Below, one piece after another: positions 1,406-35,528 of a stretch of 64,000 nt of DNA (within the stretch, counting starts at the first letter, position 1; every line of letters begins with the position of its first letter). The position numbers and the translations under genes are program-made. Source of the stretch: Acidobacteriota bacterium (GTDB lineage: Bacteria; Acidobacteriota; Vicinamibacteria; Vicinamibacterales; 2-12-FULL-66-21). The stretch is from positions 62,001 through 126,000 of the forward strand of contig QHWT01000043.1 in assembly GCA_003222675.1 (NCBI GenBank). Reading direction: 5' to 3'. The notes beneath the pieces are model-generated. The model was not told where the DNA came from, did no database searches, and saw only the letters and a list, made by a program, of their open reading frames with translations.

Positions 1406-1978
1406 ATGAAATCTGCCGGGGCCGCGCTCGCGGTTGCTGCGTTGCTGGCGGGCGTGGCGATGCTCGCATACGCCCGATGGACGCGCGACGTCGATCGCGC
1501 AGACGAGGCGCTTGCAGCAGGCCGGCTGGAAGAGGCGCTGGCCGCCTACAAGGCCGCGGACCTGGGATTCGATCGAGCGCCGGCCGCGCGTCAGATGTTC
1601 GGCGCCGACTACGATCGCGCGGTCGCGAATCATCTGTGGCTGCTGTATCGCCTGAAGCGGTACGACGAGACGATCGAGCTCGCCGAGCGCGCACCTGCTG
1701 CCGCACTGCCGCACTTCTGGTCCGGCTGCGCGTTCTTCGAAAAAGCGGTGGTCGAACCGAAGCCCGAGCCTCGGCTTGGCTGGCTCTCGAGGGCCGAGGA
1801 AGAATTCCGTAAAGCCGTTGAGGCCACGCCGGAAGACTGGGACACGAAGTACGACTTCGAGTTGACGTCGCGGCTCGCGGCGGAACTGCGGAAGCAGCCG
1901 AAGACACCGCCCCGTCAGTTGATGCAGCTCCTGCGTCCGCCATCGCCGACCGGCAAACCGGCGAGGTCTGTCGGATAG
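1406..1978 (+). CDS. TPR-like protein heading the Bat-type operon
   Basis: A 190-residue protein with an N-terminal membrane anchor (residues about 4-22, alanine/leucine-rich) followed by helical repeats of TPR type (DEALAAGRLEEALAAYKAAD, then a YDETIELAERAP helix pair and SRAEEEFRKAVEATPEDWDT). It lies 14 bases before a vWA gene and is the first member of a six-gene operon whose products resemble the Bacteroides aerotolerance (Bat) proteins. In that setting it corresponds in role to the TPR protein BatC/BatE, although it stands first here. It is likely a periplasm-facing scaffold for the vWA proteins. Confidence 0.75.
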   Translation: MKSAGAALAVAALLAGVAMLAYARWTRDVDRADEALAAGRLEEALAAYKAADLGFDRAPAARQMFGADYDRAVANHLWLLYRLKRYDETIELAERAPAAALPHFWSGCAFFEKAVVEPKPEPRLGWLSRAEEEFRKAVEATPEDWDTKYDFELTSRLAAELRKQPKTPPRQLMQLLRPPSPTGKPARSVG

Positions 1979-1992
1979 CCTGCTGTCCAGCG

Positions 1993-2981
1993 GTGATGCG
2001 TTTCCTTCGGCTCGAATATCTCTCGTGGTGGCAAATCCTTCCGCTCGCGATTGCGTGCTGGGGACTTCGCTGTCACTACCTGCGCAGCGCGGGCCGGAGA
2101 CTTCCGGTCGCGTCGCGGTTCTCGAGCTTGTCGCGGCGAACGACGTGGATGGGCGAGGTTTGCGTGCTCGTGCTCACGCTCGTCATGGGTGCAGCGATCG
2201 TCGCGGCGCTGCTGCGGCCGCAGGCCCTGCTCACCCGGCGCACGCCGGTCATCGAGCAACAGGACCTGATCCTCGTGCTCGATCGATCAGCGTCGATGCG
2301 CGCGCACGATATCGCGCCGTCCCGCTTCGCGCGCGCGACGAAGGAGATTCAGAATTTCATCGAGCACAAGCCGGAGGGGATCGGCCGCATCGGGCTCGTC
2401 GGCTTTGCGAGCGGATCGTTGATTCTCTCGTACCTGACGAACGACGTCGAAACCGTTTCGTTCTATCTCGACTGGATCAGCCACGATCCACAGACGCTGC
2501 TCGGCACCGATATCGGCGCGGCATTGAAGAATGCGCGCGAAGTGGCGCGCAAGGACGACCGCCGGACCCGCAAGCTGTTTCTCCTCGTCTCCGACGGGGA
2601 AGACTACGGTGGCGAGCTCGCGAGACAGGTGCAGAGTCTTCGCGCGGACGGTTACCGGGTGAACTGCATCGGGATCGGATCGGACACGCCGGTGCCAATC
2701 CCCGTTATCGAGCCGGACGGCCGGGAGACTTACCTGCGCGATGAACGCGGACAGATCGTGAAAACGAAATTCGAGGAAGCGACGCTCCGTCAGATCGCGG
2801 CGAACACCGGCGGACGCTACCTGCGATCCACGACCGGTGGGGAGCTGGCGACGAGCATCGACGACATCGTGAAAGGTGAGCGCAAGGTGCAGGGGTGGCG
2901 CACGACGACCGAGTATCAGGATCTTTACCCTCTGGCACTCGCGCTCGCCGCCGCCGCCGGCGCTGCGCTGTGGCTGTTGCT

Positions 2982-27655: not shown

Positions 27656-27683
27656 TGGACAGTTTTGGTCCGATGTGTATACT
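27656..27683 (+). promoter_or_regulatory. Sigma-70-like promoter of the NtrC-type regulator
   Basis: TGGACA (27656-27661), a 16-base spacer and TATACT (27678-27683), twelve bases before the ATG. The -35 and -10 each match the consensus at five of six positions. The spacer contains a ggac/gtcc inverted repeat. Confidence 0.55.
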
Positions 27684-27694
27684 TTGTGAGTGAA

Positions 27695-29098
27695 ATGACG
27701 ATGACGAAGCGGAAGTACCGGGTGCTGGCGGTCGACGACGAGCCGGCGATGATCGAGTGGCTGAAGATCCTGCTCGAACACGAGGGCTACGAGGTAAGGA
27801 CCGCCATGATCGGCACTCGGGGCGAGGAGATCTTCAAGACCTGGAAGCCGGACGTCGTCATTACCGACATGATGCTGCCCGACGTGGACGGCCTCGAGTT
27901 GCTACGAAAGTTCAAGCAGACGCACGCGGACACCGAAGTCATCGTCGTCACCGGCCACGGCAGCGTGCCCAAAGCGGTCGAGGCGATGAAGGGGGGCGCG
28001 CACAGCTTCGTCGAAAAGCCGATCGAGCCGGACACGCTGCTGGCGATGCTCGAGCGCGCGATCGAGCGACGGGATCTCGTCAGCGAGAACCTGCTGCTCA
28101 AACAGAAGGTTGAAGGGCAGTTCCGTTTCGGCAACATCATCGGCAAGAGCAAGAAGATGCACGAGGTGCTCGAGCTGGTGGAGAGCGTCGCCGGCAGCGA
28201 CGCCAATATCCTGATTCAAGGGGAGAACGGCACCGGCAAGGAGCTCATCGCCAACGCGATTCATTACAACAGCAAGCGGGCCAAGGGGCCGTTCATCAAG
28301 ATCAATTGCGCGGCAATTCCCAAGGACCTGATCGAATCCGAGCTCTTCGGCTACAAGAAAGGCGCGTTCACCGGCGCGCAGACTGATAAAGAAGGTCTCT
28401 TCGAAATGGCCGAAGGGGGGTCGCTGTTACTGGACGAGATCGGCGAGATGCCGCCATATCTCCAGACGAAGCTCCTTCGCGTGCTGCAGGAGCGTGAGTA
28501 CCGTCCCATCGGCAGCGACCGCATCGTCCGCGTCGACTTCCGGCTCGTCTGCGCGACGAACATCGATCTGGATGCAGCGTTGCGCGACGGGAAGCTGCGC
28601 GAGGATCTCTACTTCCGCATCAACACGATCACGCTGCGCGTGCCGCCGCTGCGCGAGCGCACCGAGGACATTCCGCTGCTCTGCGAGCACTTCCTCGAAA
28701 AGTACCGCCAGCGGCACCAGCGTAACGTGAAGTCCATCGCGCCGGCGGCGTATCACGTCCTGATTCGGCATCGATGGCCCGGCAACGTGCGCGAGCTGGA
28801 AAACGTCATCGAACGCGGCGTGCTGGTCGCGAAGGGAGCAGAGATCACGGTCAACGATTTGCCGGAATCCCTGCGGACCGAGAGCGCCACGACGACCGAG
28901 TTCGTGATCCCGCCGCATCGGACCCTCGCCGAGATCGAAAAGATGGCAATCGTGCAGACGCTGCATCGCACGAACTGGAACAAGCAGGAAGCCGCGCAGA
29001 TCCTGGGCCTGTACCGGCCGACCCTCTACAGCAAGATGAAAAAGCATGACATTCAGGACGGCGGAAAGTCGGGCGCGCGCAGGGCAGTGGGGGCCTAG
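27695..29098 (+). CDS. Sigma-54-dependent response regulator (NtrC family)
   Basis: A 467-residue regulator with three domains. The receiver (1-125) has phosphoacceptor D58 in VVITDMMLPD. The AAA+ domain (about 140-375) has Walker A GENGTGKE, the sigma-54-contacting GAFTGA loop, L-L-L-D-E-I-G-E-M and R-E-D-L-Y-F-R-I-N. The C-terminal Fis-type HTH reads NKQEAAQILGLYRPTLYSKM. It activates sigma-54 promoters when phosphorylated. No kinase gene is adjacent. The start is ATG 27695, although an in-frame GTG lies upstream. Confidence 0.92.
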   Translation: MTMTKRKYRVLAVDDEPAMIEWLKILLEHEGYEVRTAMIGTRGEEIFKTWKPDVVITDMMLPDVDGLELLRKFKQTHADTEVIVVTGHGSVPKAVEAMKGGAHSFVEKPIEPDTLLAMLERAIERRDLVSENLLLKQKVEGQFRFGNIIGKSKKMHEVLELVESVAGSDANILIQGENGTGKELIANAIHYNSKRAKGPFIKINCAAIPKDLIESELFGYKKGAFTGAQTDKEGLFEMAEGGSLLLDEIGEMPPYLQTKLLRVLQEREYRPIGSDRIVRVDFRLVCATNIDLDAALRDGKLREDLYFRINTITLRVPPLRERTEDIPLLCEHFLEKYRQRHQRNVKSIAPAAYHVLIRHRWPGNVRELENVIERGVLVAKGAEITVNDLPESLRTESATTTEFVIPPHRTLAEIEKMAIVQTLHRTNWNKQEAAQILGLYRPTLYSKMKKHDIQDGGKSGARRAVGA

Positions 29099-29248: not shown

Positions 29249-30034
29249 GTGTTGGATGCCACCGGCCGAATCATCGCAACGGTTGCTGGAGAAGCCGGAG
29301 AACTCTCGCTGTTCGGCTTCCGCGCGATGCGCGATGCGTTTCGTCCTCCCTTCGAAGTTGGCGAAGTCTTCCGACAAGTACACGAGCTGGGTCTTCGATC
29401 GGCGCCGCTGATCGCGGTGTCGGGCGTCGCGGTGGGCGTCGTGCTCTCGATGCACACCCGTGCGTCGCTCGAGCGCTTCGGCGCCGAATCAATGATTCCG
29501 GCCGGTCTTGCGATAGCGCTGGTGCGGGAGACGGGTCCCCTGACGGCCGCGCTCCTCTTGTCGGGACGCATCGGCGCCGGCATCGGCGCGGAGATCGGCG
29601 CCATGCGCGTCACCGAGCAGATCGACGCGCTCGAAGCGTCGGCAGTCGACGCGTTCAAGTATCTGGTCGTCACGCGCGCGCTGGCCTGCGTCATCGCCCT
29701 GCCAATCCTCACGACCGTCATGAACTTCTGCGGGATGCTGGGAGGCTTCCTCGCCGAGCACGCCGCATCGGGCATGTCGCTGCGGCTCTACTTCGATCGG
29801 TCCTTCTCTCTGATCGACGTGGCCGACTACGTCCCCGCCACGTTGAAGACGATGGTGTTTGGCTTCATCATCGCGGTGACCTCCTCATACCTCGGATTCA
29901 CCACGACCAGCGGGACCGAAGGGGTCGGACGCGCGTCGACCCGGTCCGTCGTCTTCTCCTCGATCCTGATCATCGTGTCCAACGTGATCCTCGTCCGGCT
30001 GATCTTCTTCTTCTTTCCGGGACTCCAGTCGTGA
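29249..30034 (+). CDS. mlaE: MlaE-family ABC transporter permease
   Basis: A 261-residue permease: N-terminal amphipathic helix, V-S-G-V-A-V-G-V-V-L-S-M-H, then the MlaE core R-E-T-G-P-L-T-A-A-L-L-L-S-G-R-I-G-A-G-I and A-E-I-G-A-M-R-V-T-E-Q-I-D-A-L-E, and about five membrane helices. MlaE is the membrane part of the phospholipid transporter that maintains outer-membrane asymmetry. The start is GTG 29249. The stop overlaps the GTG of the ATPase gene (GTGA), so the mla genes form an operon. Confidence 0.92.
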   Translation: MLDATGRIIATVAGEAGELSLFGFRAMRDAFRPPFEVGEVFRQVHELGLRSAPLIAVSGVAVGVVLSMHTRASLERFGAESMIPAGLAIALVRETGPLTAALLLSGRIGAGIGAEIGAMRVTEQIDALEASAVDAFKYLVVTRALACVIALPILTTVMNFCGMLGGFLAEHAASGMSLRLYFDRSFSLIDVADYVPATLKTMVFGFIIAVTSSYLGFTTTSGTEGVGRASTRSVVFSSILIIVSNVILVRLIFFFFPGLQS

Positions 30035-30822
30035 CGGCGATCGCAGGCGTGCGTGACGAAAGGCCGGCGGTTCGCGCTGCCGTCAGTGTCGCCGTGCAAC
30101 TCGATCGCGTAAGTAAGTCGTTCGGAGGGAAGCATGTCCTCCAGCAGGTGTCGTTTTCCGTGGCGAAGGGAACCGGCGTGGCGATCCTGGGACGAAGCGG
30201 AACCGGCAAGAGCGTGACGCTGCGGACGATTATCGGTCTCGTGCGCCCGGACAGCGGTCGCGTGCTGGTGGACGGGGAGGACGTGTGCGGCATGACGCGC
30301 GAGCACCTCAACACGACGCGGCGACGCATCGGATTTCTCTTTCAAACGGCGGCGCTCTTCGATTCCATCACGGTGGGTGAGAACGTCGCGTTCCCGCTTC
30401 GCCGGCACACGGACCTCAAGGAGCGCGAGATCCGGGACAAGGCAAGAGAAAAGCTCGAGCAGGTCGGACTCGAATCCGAATACAACAAGATGCCGGGCGC
30501 GCTCTCGGGCGGCATGCGCAAGCGCGCCGGGCTCGCGCGCGCGATGGCGCTCGATCCGCCGCTGCTGCTCGTCGACGAGCCGAGCGCCGGCCTCGATCCG
30601 CTCACCACCGACGAGATCGACGATCTGCTGGCGTCGTTGAAGGAAGACGCGAAGACCACGCTGGTCGTCGTGACGCACAACATTACCAGCGCGCGCAAGC
30701 TCGCGGACCGGCTGGTCATGCTGCACGAGGGCCGCGTGGAGGCGGAGGGGACCATCGCGGAATTCGAGCGCAGCGACAACCCGCTCGTACGCGCGTTCAT
30801 GACATCGGAGCACGCGGGCTGA
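30031..30822 (+). CDS. mlaF: MlaF-family ABC transporter ATPase
   Basis: A 263-residue ATPase with Walker A G-R-S-G-T-G-K-S, Q-loop F-L-F-Q-T-A-A-L-F-D-S, signature L-S-G-G-M-R-K-R and Walker B L-L-L-V-D-E-P-S-A-G-L-D-P. The M-R-K-R form of the signature is characteristic of MlaF and MCE-transport ATPases. It powers the MlaE permease. The first ~23 residues before the fold are extra. GTG start overlapping the mlaE stop; two bases separate it from mlaD. Confidence 0.93.
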   Translation: MTAIAGVRDERPAVRAAVSVAVQLDRVSKSFGGKHVLQQVSFSVAKGTGVAILGRSGTGKSVTLRTIIGLVRPDSGRVLVDGEDVCGMTREHLNTTRRRIGFLFQTAALFDSITVGENVAFPLRRHTDLKEREIRDKAREKLEQVGLESEYNKMPGALSGGMRKRAGLARAMALDPPLLLVDEPSAGLDPLTTDEIDDLLASLKEDAKTTLVVVTHNITSARKLADRLVMLHEGRVEAEGTIAEFERSDNPLVRAFMTSEHAG

Positions 30823-30824
30823 TC

Positions 30825-32216
30825 ATGACTATACCGCGCGCGCGGGCGATCGGCGTCGGCGCGTTCGTCATCGGCGGGCTGGTGCTGTTCTCGGTCGGCC
30901 TGTTCCTGATCGGGGATCGCCGGATGTTTTTCAGGAAAACGTTCGACGTGCGATCGCAGTTCTCGCGGATCTCGGGGCTTCAGACAGGCGCCAAGGTGCG
31001 CGTCGCCGGGCTGGACGCCGGCGAAGTCACGGAGATCCACGTGCCGGTCGGGCCGAGTGCGAAGTTCGTGGTGGTGATGAAGGTGCGCGAGGACGTCAGG
31101 CCGATCATCCGCACCGACTCCGTCGCCTCGATCCAGAACGACGGGCTCGTCGGCAACAAGTTCGTCCAGATCGAGGCGGGAACCGACGCGGCGCCGGTGG
31201 TTGCGGACAAGGGCACCATCCGCGGTGAAGAGCCGTTCGACTTCGCCGACCTGCTGCAGAAGATGAGCGAGACGATCGACGTCGTGAACGACACGATCGG
31301 GAGCGTGCGCACGGAGCTCGAGGAGGCGCTCGCCGCCGTCACCGATACCGCACACTCCGCGCAGGCGGTCGTCCGTGCTGCGAGCACGGACGTGCGCGCC
31401 ATTGCCGCCTCCGGCCGTAAGGCGACGACTGACATCGCGACGATTGTCGCGAACCTGAAGTCGGGCCGCGGCAGCGTCGGCAAGCTGCTGACCGACGATG
31501 CGCTGTACAAGCAGGCGCGCGGCATTTCCGATCAGGCTCAGAAGGCCGTCGCGAACCTGCGCGAGGCGAGCGAAAAGGCCAAGGACGCGATCGCCGACTT
31601 CCGCGGCGAAGGCGGGCCGATGAAAGGGCTGACCGGCAATCTGTCGCAGACGCTCGAGCACGCGCGCGATGCCATGCAGGATCTTGCGGAGAACACCGAG
31701 GCCCTGAAACACAACTTCTTGTTCCGCGGATACTTCAACCGTCGCGGCTATTTCGATCTCAGCGGCGTCAGCGTGCAGCAGTATCGGTCGGGCCTGCTCG
31801 AGCAGGCAGGACGGGTTCCGTTACGGATCTGGCTGCAGTCATCTGTACTGTTCACACGCGATGCAACAAGGAAAGAAATGCTGACAGATGTCGGTCGCGC
31901 CCGGATCGGTTCAGCGATGTCGATGTTCGTGCGGTATCCGAAAGACAGCCCGCTGGTCATCGAAGGGTACGGCGTGGAAGCCACCGGAGATCAGCAGTTT
32001 CTGTTGAGCCGCGGGCGCGCGACGATCGTGAGAGACTACGTCGTGTCGCGATTCGGGCTCGACCCGGGTGTGGTTGCCGTCATGCCGATGGGCGCCGAAG
32101 CCACAGGCAGCCCGTCTGGCGACACATGGGACGGCGTCGCGTTGACACTTTTCGTGTCGAAGTCGGCTTTCGCGGCGCCGAAAGCCGTGGCACAGGGTTT
32201 GATTGATCACAAGTGA
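30825..32216 (+). CDS. mlaD: MlaD-like MCE protein with OmpA-like C-terminal domain
   Basis: A 463-residue protein. One N-terminal transmembrane helix (about 8-28) is followed by a single MCE domain (about 35-125; GLQTGAKVRVAGLDAGEVTE, N-D-G-L-V-G-N-K-F-V-Q-I). A long helical or coiled region (about 130-300) includes the G-R-G-S-V-G-K-L-L motif common in MCE proteins. The C-terminal ~110 residues resemble an OmpA-type peptidoglycan-binding fold: L-V-I-E-G-Y-G-V-E, then LSRGRATIVRDYVVSRFGL. The fusion could tie the lipid channel to the cell wall. The core OmpA residues should be checked structurally. Confidence 0.85.
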   Translation: MTIPRARAIGVGAFVIGGLVLFSVGLFLIGDRRMFFRKTFDVRSQFSRISGLQTGAKVRVAGLDAGEVTEIHVPVGPSAKFVVVMKVREDVRPIIRTDSVASIQNDGLVGNKFVQIEAGTDAAPVVADKGTIRGEEPFDFADLLQKMSETIDVVNDTIGSVRTELEEALAAVTDTAHSAQAVVRAASTDVRAIAASGRKATTDIATIVANLKSGRGSVGKLLTDDALYKQARGISDQAQKAVANLREASEKAKDAIADFRGEGGPMKGLTGNLSQTLEHARDAMQDLAENTEALKHNFLFRGYFNRRGYFDLSGVSVQQYRSGLLEQAGRVPLRIWLQSSVLFTRDATRKEMLTDVGRARIGSAMSMFVRYPKDSPLVIEGYGVEATGDQQFLLSRGRATIVRDYVVSRFGLDPGVVAVMPMGAEATGSPSGDTWDGVALTLFVSKSAFAAPKAVAQGLIDHK

Positions 32217-32277
32217 TGCGCGGCGCGCGACGTGTGTAATCGGCCGAAGCATCCTTGGAAATTTGAAGGAGGTCGAC

Positions 32278-32529
32278 GTGGACGAGCGATCGCGTGTATT
32301 GCTGGCCACCTTGCTCGGAGCAGTGGCGGGCGGCGTGTGGGGATGGCTCTACATGACGGAAAGCGGACGGCGGATGCGTAGTCAGATCGAGCCGAAGCTC
32401 GACGATTTCATGCGCGAGCTCGCCAACGTGCGCGGAACGGTTGAGAAGGCGCGAACGGCGGCGAATGAAGGATGGCGCTCGCTGGGCGAGCTCACAGGCA
32501 ACCCGGGCCAGGGCCGCTGGTCGGCATAG
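32278..32529 (+). CDS. Small membrane-anchored helical protein
   Basis: An 83-residue protein with an aaggagg Shine-Dalgarno (32267-32273) just before GTG 32278, which fixes the start. One hydrophobic helix (LLATLLGAVAGGVWGWLYM) is followed by a charged helix (MRSQIEPKLDDFMRELANV). This resembles YtxH-type proteins. Function unknown. It heads a run of four small envelope genes after mlaD. Confidence 0.75.
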   Translation: MDERSRVLLATLLGAVAGGVWGWLYMTESGRRMRSQIEPKLDDFMRELANVRGTVEKARTAANEGWRSLGELTGNPGQGRWSA

Positions 32530-32539
32530 GAGATCAGCA

Positions 32540-32959
32540 ATGCCCGATCTGCATACGACCAACGTCCTGCTCGGCATCATGGCCGCGACGAGCGTGCTCG
32601 AAGCGCTGCTGGTGATCGGCATGGGCGTCGGCGGATTCGTCGCGTACCGGCGTGTCATGCAGCTGGTCACCGACCTCGAGGCGCGCCAGATTACGCCGCT
32701 GCGTGAGAAGGTCGATGCCATTCTGCTGGACGTCAAGTCCGTGACGGCGCGCGTGAGCCAGCAGTCCGAGCGTGTCGATCATGCCATCAGCGGAACGATG
32801 GAACGGGTGGATGAAACGGCGGGTCGCGTGCGGTCCAGCGTGCGCGAACGGGTGGCGCAGGCGATCGGGATCGTCCACGGCGTGCGCGCGATCCTGATTT
32901 CGATCCTGCACCATGACTCGCGGCCGAAGCCCACGGCGACTGCGGCGGGCCGCGCGTGA
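32540..32959 (+). CDS. DUF948-like membrane protein
   Basis: A 139-residue protein with an N-terminal transmembrane helix (residues about 9-35, glycine-rich end) and a long heptad-patterned segment (VTDLEARQITPLREKVDAIL, then VTARVSQQSERVDHAISGTM). DUF948 proteins have this plan and occur beside YtxH proteins in many bacteria, as here. It lies 10 bases after the preceding gene. Confidence 0.75.
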   Translation: MPDLHTTNVLLGIMAATSVLEALLVIGMGVGGFVAYRRVMQLVTDLEARQITPLREKVDAILLDVKSVTARVSQQSERVDHAISGTMERVDETAGRVRSSVRERVAQAIGIVHGVRAILISILHHDSRPKPTATAAGRA

Positions 32960-33047: not shown

Positions 33048-33425
33048 ATGGCGTACGAATACGATCGCTTGGAGCGGGAAGAAGGCGGCGGCTCGTTTCT
33101 GATGGGACTGCTCGCCGGGACGGTGCTCGGTGCGGGGCTCGGCATGTTGTTCGCGCCGAAGGCGGGTTCGGAGCTGCGGTCGCAGTTGACGGAGTCGGCC
33201 GGACAGCTGCGCTCCAAGGCGGGCGACATCAGCCAGCAGGCATCGGAGAAGGTGAGCCAGATCGTCGATCGCGGCCGCGAGGCCTACGATCGCGCGCGCT
33301 CGAGCGTCAGCGAGATGGCGTCGACTGGCACGTCCGGCTCGATCGGCCCGACCGGCAACACGAGTGGCCCAGGCAACTTGACCAGCACGCCCGGTACGAC
33401 GAGCACGTCGGGCGGAGCGTACTGA
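33048..33425 (+). CDS. YtxH-domain protein
   Basis: A 125-residue protein with a strong aggaggg ribosome site eight bases before ATG. A glycine-rich membrane helix (SFLMGLLAGTVLGAGLGMLFAPKAGSE in part) ends with the YtxH hallmark F-A-P-K-A-G-S-E. It is followed by a helix of Q, S and K residues and a low-complexity S/T/G/P tail (T-G-T-S-G-S-I-G-P-T-G). YtxH proteins are envelope-stress or general-stress proteins with no known activity. Confidence 0.85.
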   Translation: MAYEYDRLEREEGGGSFLMGLLAGTVLGAGLGMLFAPKAGSELRSQLTESAGQLRSKAGDISQQASEKVSQIVDRGREAYDRARSSVSEMASTGTSGSIGPTGNTSGPGNLTSTPGTTSTSGGAY

Positions 33426-33809: not shown

Positions 33810-34715
33810 GTGAGTGTGGTCGGCCGCGCCGCTGCGCGCATTCGCGGAGAAGTCCGGCTCACCGGTCTCGCGATCTGGCGCGGCGTGGTCGGCATCTACA
33901 ACAGCAACGACCTCACGTTCGCCTCATCCATCGCGTACTACGCACTGCTCTCCCTGTTCCCGTTTTTTCTTCTCGCCTTTTCCATTCTCGGCAGCGTCAC
34001 CGCGAACCAGGGCGATCGCGCGTCGATTCTGAGTTTCGTGCTGCGCTATTTTCCGCGGCAGTTCGACTTCGTCACGACGCAGCTCGACGCGCTGCAGCAG
34101 GCGCGCGTGCGCCTCGGCATCGCGGGCAGCATGCTGATGATCTGGGCTGCGATGGGCGTGTTTGGCGCCATAACGTCCGCGATCAACCATGCCTGGGGCG
34201 TCGACAGGCAACCGAGCTACTTCAAGCACAAGCTTATCTCGTTCGTGATGCTCGTCGCGGCCTCGCTGCTGCTGCTCACCGGGCTGCTGCTCGTCAGCGC
34301 CGTCAACGTGATCGAGGCGCGCTGGTTTTCGGTCGTCGTTGTCCGCACGCCGGGCCTGCTCGTCCTCAGTCATTTTGCGGTGAGGTGGGCCAGCACCGTC
34401 GTCTTCATCCTCGTCGTCGGATTGATCTTCTACTTTGTGCCCAACGCTAAGGTGCGCTTCCGAGATGTGTGGGTCGGCGCTGTCGTGACGGGGCTCCTCT
34501 GGCGCGGTGCGCTCTGGGGCTTCTCCTGGTACGTGCACGATATGACGCGGTTCAACAACGTCCATGGATCCGTGGCCGCAGTAGTCGTGTTTCTGATCTG
34601 GGTTTATATTTCGGCGGTGTTGTTGCTTTACGGCGTGGAGGTCACGGCTGCCAACGCACGGCTGCGCCGCCACAGGCCGGAGGCGATTCCGGCCGCGCCG
34701 GCCCCACGGGTGTAG
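33810..34715 (+). CDS. YihY/BrkB-family membrane protein
   Basis: A 301-residue protein with six hydrophobic segments. The family motifs are visible: S-I-A-Y-Y-A-L-L-S-L-F-P-F-F at about 45-58, then I-N-H-A-W-G-V, F-Y-F-V-P-N-A-K-V-R-F-R-D-V-W-V-G-A and a late I-W-V-Y-I-S-A-V-L-L-L-Y-G-V-E-V. This is the UPF0761/YihY family, formerly annotated ribonuclease BN, with an unclear role in envelope function. GTG start. Confidence 0.9.
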   Translation: MSVVGRAAARIRGEVRLTGLAIWRGVVGIYNSNDLTFASSIAYYALLSLFPFFLLAFSILGSVTANQGDRASILSFVLRYFPRQFDFVTTQLDALQQARVRLGIAGSMLMIWAAMGVFGAITSAINHAWGVDRQPSYFKHKLISFVMLVAASLLLLTGLLLVSAVNVIEARWFSVVVVRTPGLLVLSHFAVRWASTVVFILVVGLIFYFVPNAKVRFRDVWVGAVVTGLLWRGALWGFSWYVHDMTRFNNVHGSVAAVVVFLIWVYISAVLLLYGVEVTAANARLRRHRPEAIPAAPAPRV

Positions 34716-34718
34716 TCG

Positions 34719-35528
34719 ATGGTTCATAGGGTTCTCTCTCTCGCTCTTTCCGCAGTTCTCAGTGACGCTTCGGTAGGCGGCATCAAGCTCATCTCGGTGG
34801 CCGACGAAATCAAGCTCGGTCGGCAAGCACAAAAAGAAGTGAAGTCGGAGATCCCGGAAGTCGGCGGCGCTCCCGGGGTCTATGTGTCGGCCATCGGGCG
34901 GAAGCTCGCCGCGGCCGCGCGAGGACCGAAGTATCCGTACAACTTCTCGATCGCGAACTACCGCGAGATCAACGCGTTCGCGCTCCCGGGCGGGCCTGTG
35001 TGGGTGCACCGCGGCGCGATACAGGCTGCGGCGAACGAGTCACAGCTCGCGGGCGTTCTTGCTCACGAGATCGCGCACATCGCGCAGCGCCACGCAGCGG
35101 ATCAGATATCGAAGGGTGTCATTGCGAACGGCCTGCTCGGCCTGCTCGGCGCCGTCCTCGGGATCTCCGGCGGCGCGCGCACGGCGCAGACCGGCGCCGA
35201 GATTCTCGCGGGCGGCTACATGATGAAGTTCAGCCGTGACGACGAGCGGGAAGCTGATCGCGTGGGCGTGGAGATCATGCGACGAGCAGGCTGGGACGCC
35301 CGCGGCATGGTCGAGTTCATGCAAACGTTGCGTACGCGTGCAGGACGCGATCCCGGATCGGTCGAGGTGTTTCTCTCGACCCACCCGTCGCCATCGGATC
35401 GCGTCGAGCGTCTGCGTGCGCAACTGCGCGGCGTACGTGCCGGCGGCCGACGTGATAGTGCAGAGTTCGCGCGGATCCACGCGACCCTCGCGCACATGGC
35501 TCCCGCCCGCGCAATGCCGAAGCGGTGA
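34719..35528 (+). CDS. M48-family metalloprotease, exported
   Basis: A 269-residue protease, three bases after the BrkB-like gene. It has a short N-terminal hydrophobic segment (VLSLALSAVL). The zinc site is H-E-I-A-H (about 112-116), with the third ligand in D-E-R-E-A-D; NAFALPGGPVWVHRG is the usual substrate-side strand. It resembles BepA/LoiP-type periplasmic proteases that take part in outer-membrane quality control, which fits with the mla and stress genes upstream. C-terminal TPRs of BepA are absent. Confidence 0.88.
   Translation: MVHRVLSLALSAVLSDASVGGIKLISVADEIKLGRQAQKEVKSEIPEVGGAPGVYVSAIGRKLAAAARGPKYPYNFSIANYREINAFALPGGPVWVHRGAIQAAANESQLAGVLAHEIAHIAQRHAADQISKGVIANGLLGLLGAVLGISGGARTAQTGAEILAGGYMMKFSRDDEREADRVGVEIMRRAGWDARGMVEFMQTLRTRAGRDPGSVEVFLSTHPSPSDRVERLRAQLRGVRAGGRRDSAEFARIHATLAHMAPARAMPKR

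Follow-up and report, generated by a model that had tools for sequence, protein, structure and literature searches.

An MlaD-type MCE protein with a predicted OmpA-fold C-terminal domain in Acidobacteriota

Introduction

The locus described here raises the question of how, in the absence of MlaA and MlaC, an MCE needle reaches the outer membrane and keeps hold of it. The MlaD of Escherichia coli has 183 aa, is without a long helical region and relies on the shuttle MlaC and the lipoprotein MlaA (PMC10665443, PMC12436622). In the former study, 85% of MlaD homologues are long, with an average of 374 aa, and in systems that consist of MlaEFD only, about 10% of long MlaD sequences end in a membrane barrel, the far end of the others being often disordered (PMC10665443). 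An earlier note on the present DNA, made from its sequence alone, took ordinary MlaD to end after the MCE domain and a short helix, which is true of the E. coli type but not of most homologues.

We analyzed a window, that is, a whole stretch of 64,000 nucleotides from an Acidobacteriota bacterium, that contains an mla operon whose MCE protein the earlier note proposed to be fused to an OmpA-like domain. Pfam matches, profile comparisons and a structural model agree with this proposal of an OmpA-fold C-terminal domain in one chain with the MCE part. The titles and abstracts of the literature searched, mostly outside subscription journals, contained no description of an MCE/MlaD-OmpA fusion. The word OmpA is absent from the main texts of the Veillonella (PMC10665443), Brucella and Isom papers, and the words Acidobacteri and peptidoglycan are absent from the main text of the first. 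No account of an OmpA-type end domain fused to a long MlaD was thus found in the literature searched.

Results

The MCE-OmpA gene is the third gene of an mla cluster and encodes, in a frame without an inner stop, a protein of 463 aa (Table 1). The order of genes in the window is mlaE, mlaF and then the MCE-OmpA gene. The mlaF neighbour is shared by the two lineages of fusion genes described below: a relative of mlaF lies upstream on the same strand in 34 of 34 lineage-1 and 9 of 9 lineage-2 genes with room for it. Two traits of the MlaD/MCE family, an N-terminal membrane helix and an operon with mlaE and mlaF, are present. The three small genes that follow possibly encode accessory envelope proteins. 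Relatives of the YtxH-like gene, the coiled-coil-like gene and the YtxH gene occur near 18 of 36, 14 of 34 and 14 of 32 lineage-1 genes with room, respectively, and none were found beside lineage-2 genes.

Table 1. Features of the mla locus and of the MCE-OmpA protein, in window positions
Feature	Position	Strand	Basis or remark
mlaE permease	29249..30034	+	PF02405, E 3.6e-66
mlaF ATPase, start approximate	30064..30822	+	PF00005, E 2.7e-32; best NCBIfam match PRK11831 MlaF, under its cut-off
mlaD-like gene, MCE protein with OmpA-like C-terminal domain, 463 aa	30825..32216	+	starts two bases past the mlaF stop
N-terminal membrane helix, residues ~8-30	30846..30914	+	hydrophobic stretch; helix 5-36 in model
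MCE (MlaD) domain, residues 41-119	30945..31181	+	PF02470, E 6.4e-15
Helical linker, residues 138-285 (~150)	31236..31679	+	mostly pLDDT <50; 36% mean pairwise identity
Tip motif, residues 286-312, EALKHNFLFRGYFNRRG region	31680..31760	+	70% mean pairwise identity; dN/dS 0.06
OmpA-like domain, residues 330-446	31812..32162	+	Pfam, PDB profile, profile-profile comparison, model
V384, aligned to the diaminopimelate-binding Asp of OmpA (lost)	31974..31976	+	alignment
R398, aligned to the diaminopimelate-binding Arg of OmpA	32016..32018	+	Arg in 36/37 lineage-1 proteins
YtxH-like small membrane protein, start approximate	32203..32529	+	PF12732, E 4.2e-7, under cut-off; ORF overlaps the end of the MCE gene
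Small membrane-anchored coiled-coil-like protein	32540..32959	+	no family match above cut-off
YtxH family protein	33048..33425	+	PF12732, E 4.2e-17

Upstream of mlaE on the same strand, positions 27665-29098 encode a sigma-54-dependent response regulator (PF00072, PF00158, HTH_8), which possibly regulates the mla operon. Downstream of the cluster, positions 33810-35528 encode a BrkB-family membrane protein and an M48 peptidase.

The MCE domain scores 55.6 bits against PF02470, above the curated cut-off of 25.1, and the whole protein reaches 71.8 bits against the equivalog TIGR04430 (OM_asym_MlaD), under the required 135. The earlier note had counted about 110 extra C-terminal residues; this number proved too low, since the MCE domain is followed by about 330 residues, some 117-130 of them OmpA-like. 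The linker is the least conserved large segment of the protein, and the linkers of some lineage-2 proteins are much shorter. Just ahead of the OmpA-like domain lies an aromatic-basic tip motif (NFLFRGFFNRRG). A strict pattern for this motif matched 30 of 37 lineage-1 and 9 of 9 lineage-2 proteins and was found in none of the frames of 19 plain-MCE loci. Among the seven lineage-1 proteins missed by the pattern, at least one (L053) has a close variant by eye. In the AlphaFold model of the full-length protein (pTM 0.36), the MCE and OmpA-like parts are confident and most of the linker has a pLDDT below 50. The best Foldseek matches of this model were Mce1 and MlaD structures, with Mce1 (8fed, 8fef) at E 3.9e-13; because the rmsd of the Mce1 match is near 60, these matches support the order of the parts and the MCE fold and not the overall shape.

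The identity of the C-terminal domain emerges from families and profiles more clearly than from the single sequence. OmpA was not among the families listed in Pfam and NCBIfam scans of the whole protein, and the C-terminal 163 residues alone matched PF00691 (OmpA) at E 0.0014, with 19.4 bits against a cut-off of 27.2. We aligned 16 orthologues, the 463-aa protein included, over the full length (A1) and over the C-terminal part (A2). PF00691 was matched at E up to 1 by 14 of the 16 orthologous C-terminal pieces, the best at 7.3e-8. Searched against the PDB, the A2 profile found OprF (1.3e-4), OmpA (1.5e-4) and Pal (0.0036), whereas the weaker single-sequence search found OprF only, at E 0.025. 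Moreover, profile-profile comparison with eight OmpA-type domains, six from the same genome plus E. coli OmpA and Pal, gave a probability of 96.9% (E 1.5e-10). In lineage 2 the match is direct: member L059 scores 38.5 bits against PF00691, above the cut-off, and all six founding members match the family.

The AlphaFold model of the C-terminal domain, built from A2, has a mean pLDDT of 86.2 and shows the mixed alpha/beta fold of OmpA instead of a C-terminal membrane beta-barrel. Foldseek placed the OmpA-like domain of A. baumannii first (E 1.7e-6), and VIA-align superposed the model on Salmonella OmpA (4rha) with Z 13.4 and an rmsd of 2.6 A over 113 residues. The structure prediction and profile comparison suggested in the earlier note thus both return OmpA (Z 13.4; 96.9% probability), and the C-terminal motifs that it quoted are present in the order given. 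By sequence profiles and predicted structure, we consider the OmpA-like domain confirmed and the MCE-OmpA fusion real. Separately, a Pfam match to EAD5 (E 0.05) was rejected as the identity of the domain, as only two of the 16 members match it.

The full-length protein is present in 16 of 40 genomes, its own included; a single-protein scan of 40 contig stretches confirmed one relative, at 76% identity. The C-terminal domain occurs at E up to 1e-12 in 52 of 149 genomes of the order, a survey in which 30 places became loci and the MCE part was checked in these 30 alone. Across the phylum, lineage 1 was found in at least 18 of 396 genomes (E under 1e-20) and the more diverged lineage 2, detected with profile A3, in at least 9 of 396 (E under 1e-50), six of the nine being founders of the profile; both thresholds were our choice and the counts are lower bounds. 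Weaker matches mostly cover the OmpA core alone and were taken as ordinary OmpA proteins. The Acidobacteriota survey that the earlier note had called for thus finds the fusion in two lineages and, with these joined, in at least 26 of 396 genomes, 25 with an unbroken fusion and one (G372) with the parts split. The MCE profile A4 matched proteins at 1e-10 in 365 of the 396 genomes, so the MCE-OmpA fusion is a minority form. The own genome also encodes an MCE paralogue of 348 aa without an OmpA-like domain (L001). One genome (G118) holds both fusion lineages, on different contigs (L054, L079).

Both parts lie in one frame in 35 of 37 lineage-1 and 9 of 9 lineage-2 distinct reading frames, nearly all from different genomes. 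The two exceptions are L117, which begins at a contig end, and L056, which is split by an in-frame stop. The stop in L056 (G372, positions 1486-2877, minus strand) falls between the MCE part and the OmpA-like part, and the locus is either a damaged gene or a pair that is naturally split.

In a tree of MCE domains, lineage 1 forms one clade (support 100/100), with a family from another class among its members. Lineages 1 and 2 lie together on one side of a branch with support of 71/66, which is not significant. An alignment of their C-terminal regions, spanning the tip motif and the OmpA part, has a probability of 99.6%. However, certain ordinary OmpA proteins (G153, 2.4e-13) are as good a match to the lineage-2 profile as lineage-1 proteins are.

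Conservation along the protein indicates that the end domain is used. In A1, mean pairwise identity amounts to 65% in the membrane helix, 53% in the MCE domain, 36% in the linker, 70% in the tip motif and 48% in the OmpA-like domain. No part is better conserved than the tip motif, which is ahead of the MCE domain (70% vs 53%). Against L033, which is 76% identical, dN/dS is 0.11 for the helix, 0.16 for the MCE domain, 0.27 for the linker, 0.06 for the tip, 0.14 for the OmpA-like domain and 0.57 for the last 17 residues; these values come from one gene pair by simple counting, with dS exceeding 1 for the tip and the OmpA-like domain. By this pair, the OmpA-like domain is under purifying selection.

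The site that holds diaminopimelate in OmpA proteins is changed. In A. baumannii OmpA it is held by D271 and R286 (PMC6572160), and the peptidoglycan motif of OmpA domains has been given as TD(x)7NxxLSxxRA (PMC5104382). The 463-aa protein does not carry this full motif with its Asp, Asn and Arg. As aligned, Asp stands at the site in 3 of 37 lineage-1 and 1 of 9 lineage-2 proteins, the motif Asn in 0 of 37 and 5 of 9, and Arg in 36 of 37 and 5 of 9; Asp and Arg occur together in 3 of 37 and 0 of 9. Loss of the diaminopimelate residues had been named in the earlier note as a finding that would refute its proposal, and half of it is seen: Asp (V384) and Asn are gone, whereas Arg (R398) is kept. 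Canonical peptidoglycan binding, for which the note had proposed a test, is not supported by these alignments (Asp 3/37, Asn 0/37 in lineage 1), and the reading of the domain as a canonical peptidoglycan anchor is weakened. In 18 of 37 lineage-1 proteins, including the 463-aa protein (E385), the residue in the Asp column or in the one after it is acidic, and the loop of this protein is one residue shorter than that of OmpA, which leaves some slack in the placement of Asp. The diaminopimelate site may thus be shifted or retained.

Ordinary OmpA-type domains of the same genome keep the site. Among the six aligned, Asp is present in five and Arg in all six, and both E. coli controls keep both residues; a seventh domain (L040, with a match under the Pfam cut-off) was left out of this alignment. 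The wall of the organism therefore probably still offers diaminopimelate, and the loss of Asp is probably specific to the MCE proteins. The genome's best Pfam OmpA match, L034 on contig C38, reads GHTC where Asp is expected.

Finally, MlaC (PF05494) and MlaA (PF04333) were each found in 0 of 20 genomes, the own genome included and 10 of the 20 carrying the fusion, whereas the E. coli and Caulobacter controls were positive. Judged by these two genes, neither of which was found, the system is not a canonical E. coli-type Mla pathway.

Discussion

We propose that the protein is the MCE subunit of a shuttle-free, MlaEFD-type system and that its crown of OmpA-fold domains docks the needle to a partner or joins the tips, rather than gripping the wall in the manner of OmpA and Pal; we consider the chances of this proposal to be evenly balanced. 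Six copies would form the usual MCE ring on the permease, and the linker helices would extend as a needle towards the outer membrane. The OmpA-fold domains would sit as a crown at the far end of the needle, where the crown would either attach it to a partner protein at the wall or the outer membrane or keep the six tips together. The loss of Asp and Asn, together with conservation of the fold and of one Arg, makes docking or tip-holding the most likely role, rather than gripping of peptidoglycan. A bridge to the outer membrane or the wall is plausible from the length of the protein and from the searches in which MlaA and MlaC were not found. Several points speak against this proposal: no partner gene was identified, the small neighbours being near only part of lineage 1 and none in lineage 2; the Arg of 36 of 37 lineage-1 proteins fits a retained ligand site, as the acidic residues around the Asp column may fit a shifted one; and the linker is modelled with low confidence and is much shorter in some lineage-2 proteins.

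This Arg also belongs to the strongest rival explanation, a true peptidoglycan anchor with altered chemistry, in which Arg and a remodelled pocket bind a component of the wall, such as another carboxylate or a stem peptide in another pose, and so clamp each needle at the wall. The OmpA fold, the acidic residue that 18 of 37 proteins have in or beside the Asp column, the three of 37 with both Asp and Arg, and the periplasmic location that follows from the membrane helix are consistent with it. However, as aligned, Asp is absent from 34 of 37 and Asn from 37 of 37 lineage-1 proteins, and lineage 2, with Asn and Arg in 5 of 9 each, has Asp and Arg together in 0 of 9. Moreover, the same genome keeps canonical domains, which makes a change in wall chemistry an unlikely cause. 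There is also a precedent in Treponema pallidum Tp0624, whose divergent OmpA-like domain has likewise kept Arg and lost Asp and in which diaminopimelate binding was not seen (PMC5104382). We regard such an anchor as doubtful, though worth serious consideration.

Alternatively, the OmpA-like piece could be a passive cap or spacer gained by ordinary domain accretion, with the transporter working like other long MlaD proteins. Long MlaD proteins with other end domains or none are indeed widespread in the account of PMC10665443, the own genome has its 348-aa paralogue without the domain, and the fusion is a minority form in the phylum (at least 26 of 396 genomes). A passive piece is nevertheless improbable, given that the identity of the OmpA-like domain (48%) is near that of the MCE domain (53%), that its dN/dS is 0.14 and that the domain has been kept in two lineages and across at least two classes. 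An artefact of assembly or gene calling that joined two neighbouring genes, for which only the stop between the two parts of L056 could be cited, is refuted by 35 of 37 lineage-1 and 9 of 9 lineage-2 distinct genes, in which the two parts share one frame and stand in the same order, and has practically no standing.

Several known systems resemble the protein in part. The closest is the long MlaD of Veillonella parvula, which likewise has a membrane helix, an MCE domain, a long helical region and an extra C-terminal domain and is encoded in an mla operon with MlaEFD and without MlaA and MlaC; its C-terminal domain is an outer-membrane beta-barrel, unlike the OmpA-type domain of the 463-aa protein (PMC10665443). 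With E. coli MlaD the protein shares the MCE domain and a gene that adjoins mlaE and mlaF. Mce1 of Mycobacterium smegmatis resembles it in joining MCE domains to long helices that form a needle. No OmpA-type domain is known to us in Mce1. Mce1 further differs as a heterohexamer whose tip is a small barrel with one strand per chain (PMC10665443). PqiB, together with the lipoprotein PqiC, also forms a helical needle that is anchored at the outer membrane, but there the anchor is a separate lipoprotein ring, whereas the anchor-like domain is fused in the 463-aa protein (PMC12436622). The periplasmic domains of OmpA, Pal and MotB share its fold and the conserved S-x-x-R-A stretch, from which the 463-aa protein departs in having lost the motif Asp, the Asn and the terminal NRR. 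Tp0624 is likewise a multidomain envelope protein, with other partner domains and without an MCE part (PMC5104382).

In a broader and more tentative reading, which may well prove wrong, these proteins would constitute a distinct class of trans-envelope lipid conduit, an MCE needle with a crown of six OmpA-fold domains that once bound the wall and now serve to keep the tip in place at the wall or the outer membrane. The class would have arisen by one or two fusion events in Acidobacteriota, and NFLFRGFFNRRG may be a lipid exit or a membrane-touching element. The locus bears on the way in which an MCE needle can extend to the outer membrane and be held there with neither MlaA nor MlaC, in a phylum that goes unnamed in the main texts of the Mla papers searched (Veillonella, Isom). 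It would add a far-end arrangement to the Veillonella barrel and the ring that PqiC forms separately, and appears to show selection preserving an OmpA-type domain that has lost part of the classical ligand site. Because the end domain is fused, it can be cut off, swapped or mutated, which makes the docking step testable.

The origin of the fusion may be reflected in the tip motif. A plasmid collection yielded one Bacteroidota MCE protein, from a Hymenobacter plasmid, that has the tip motif and no OmpA-like domain and ends about 15 residues past the motif. Judging from this one outside example, the OmpA-like domain looks to have been added behind an older needle end. When used as a query, the Hymenobacter protein matched three actinobacterial plasmids.
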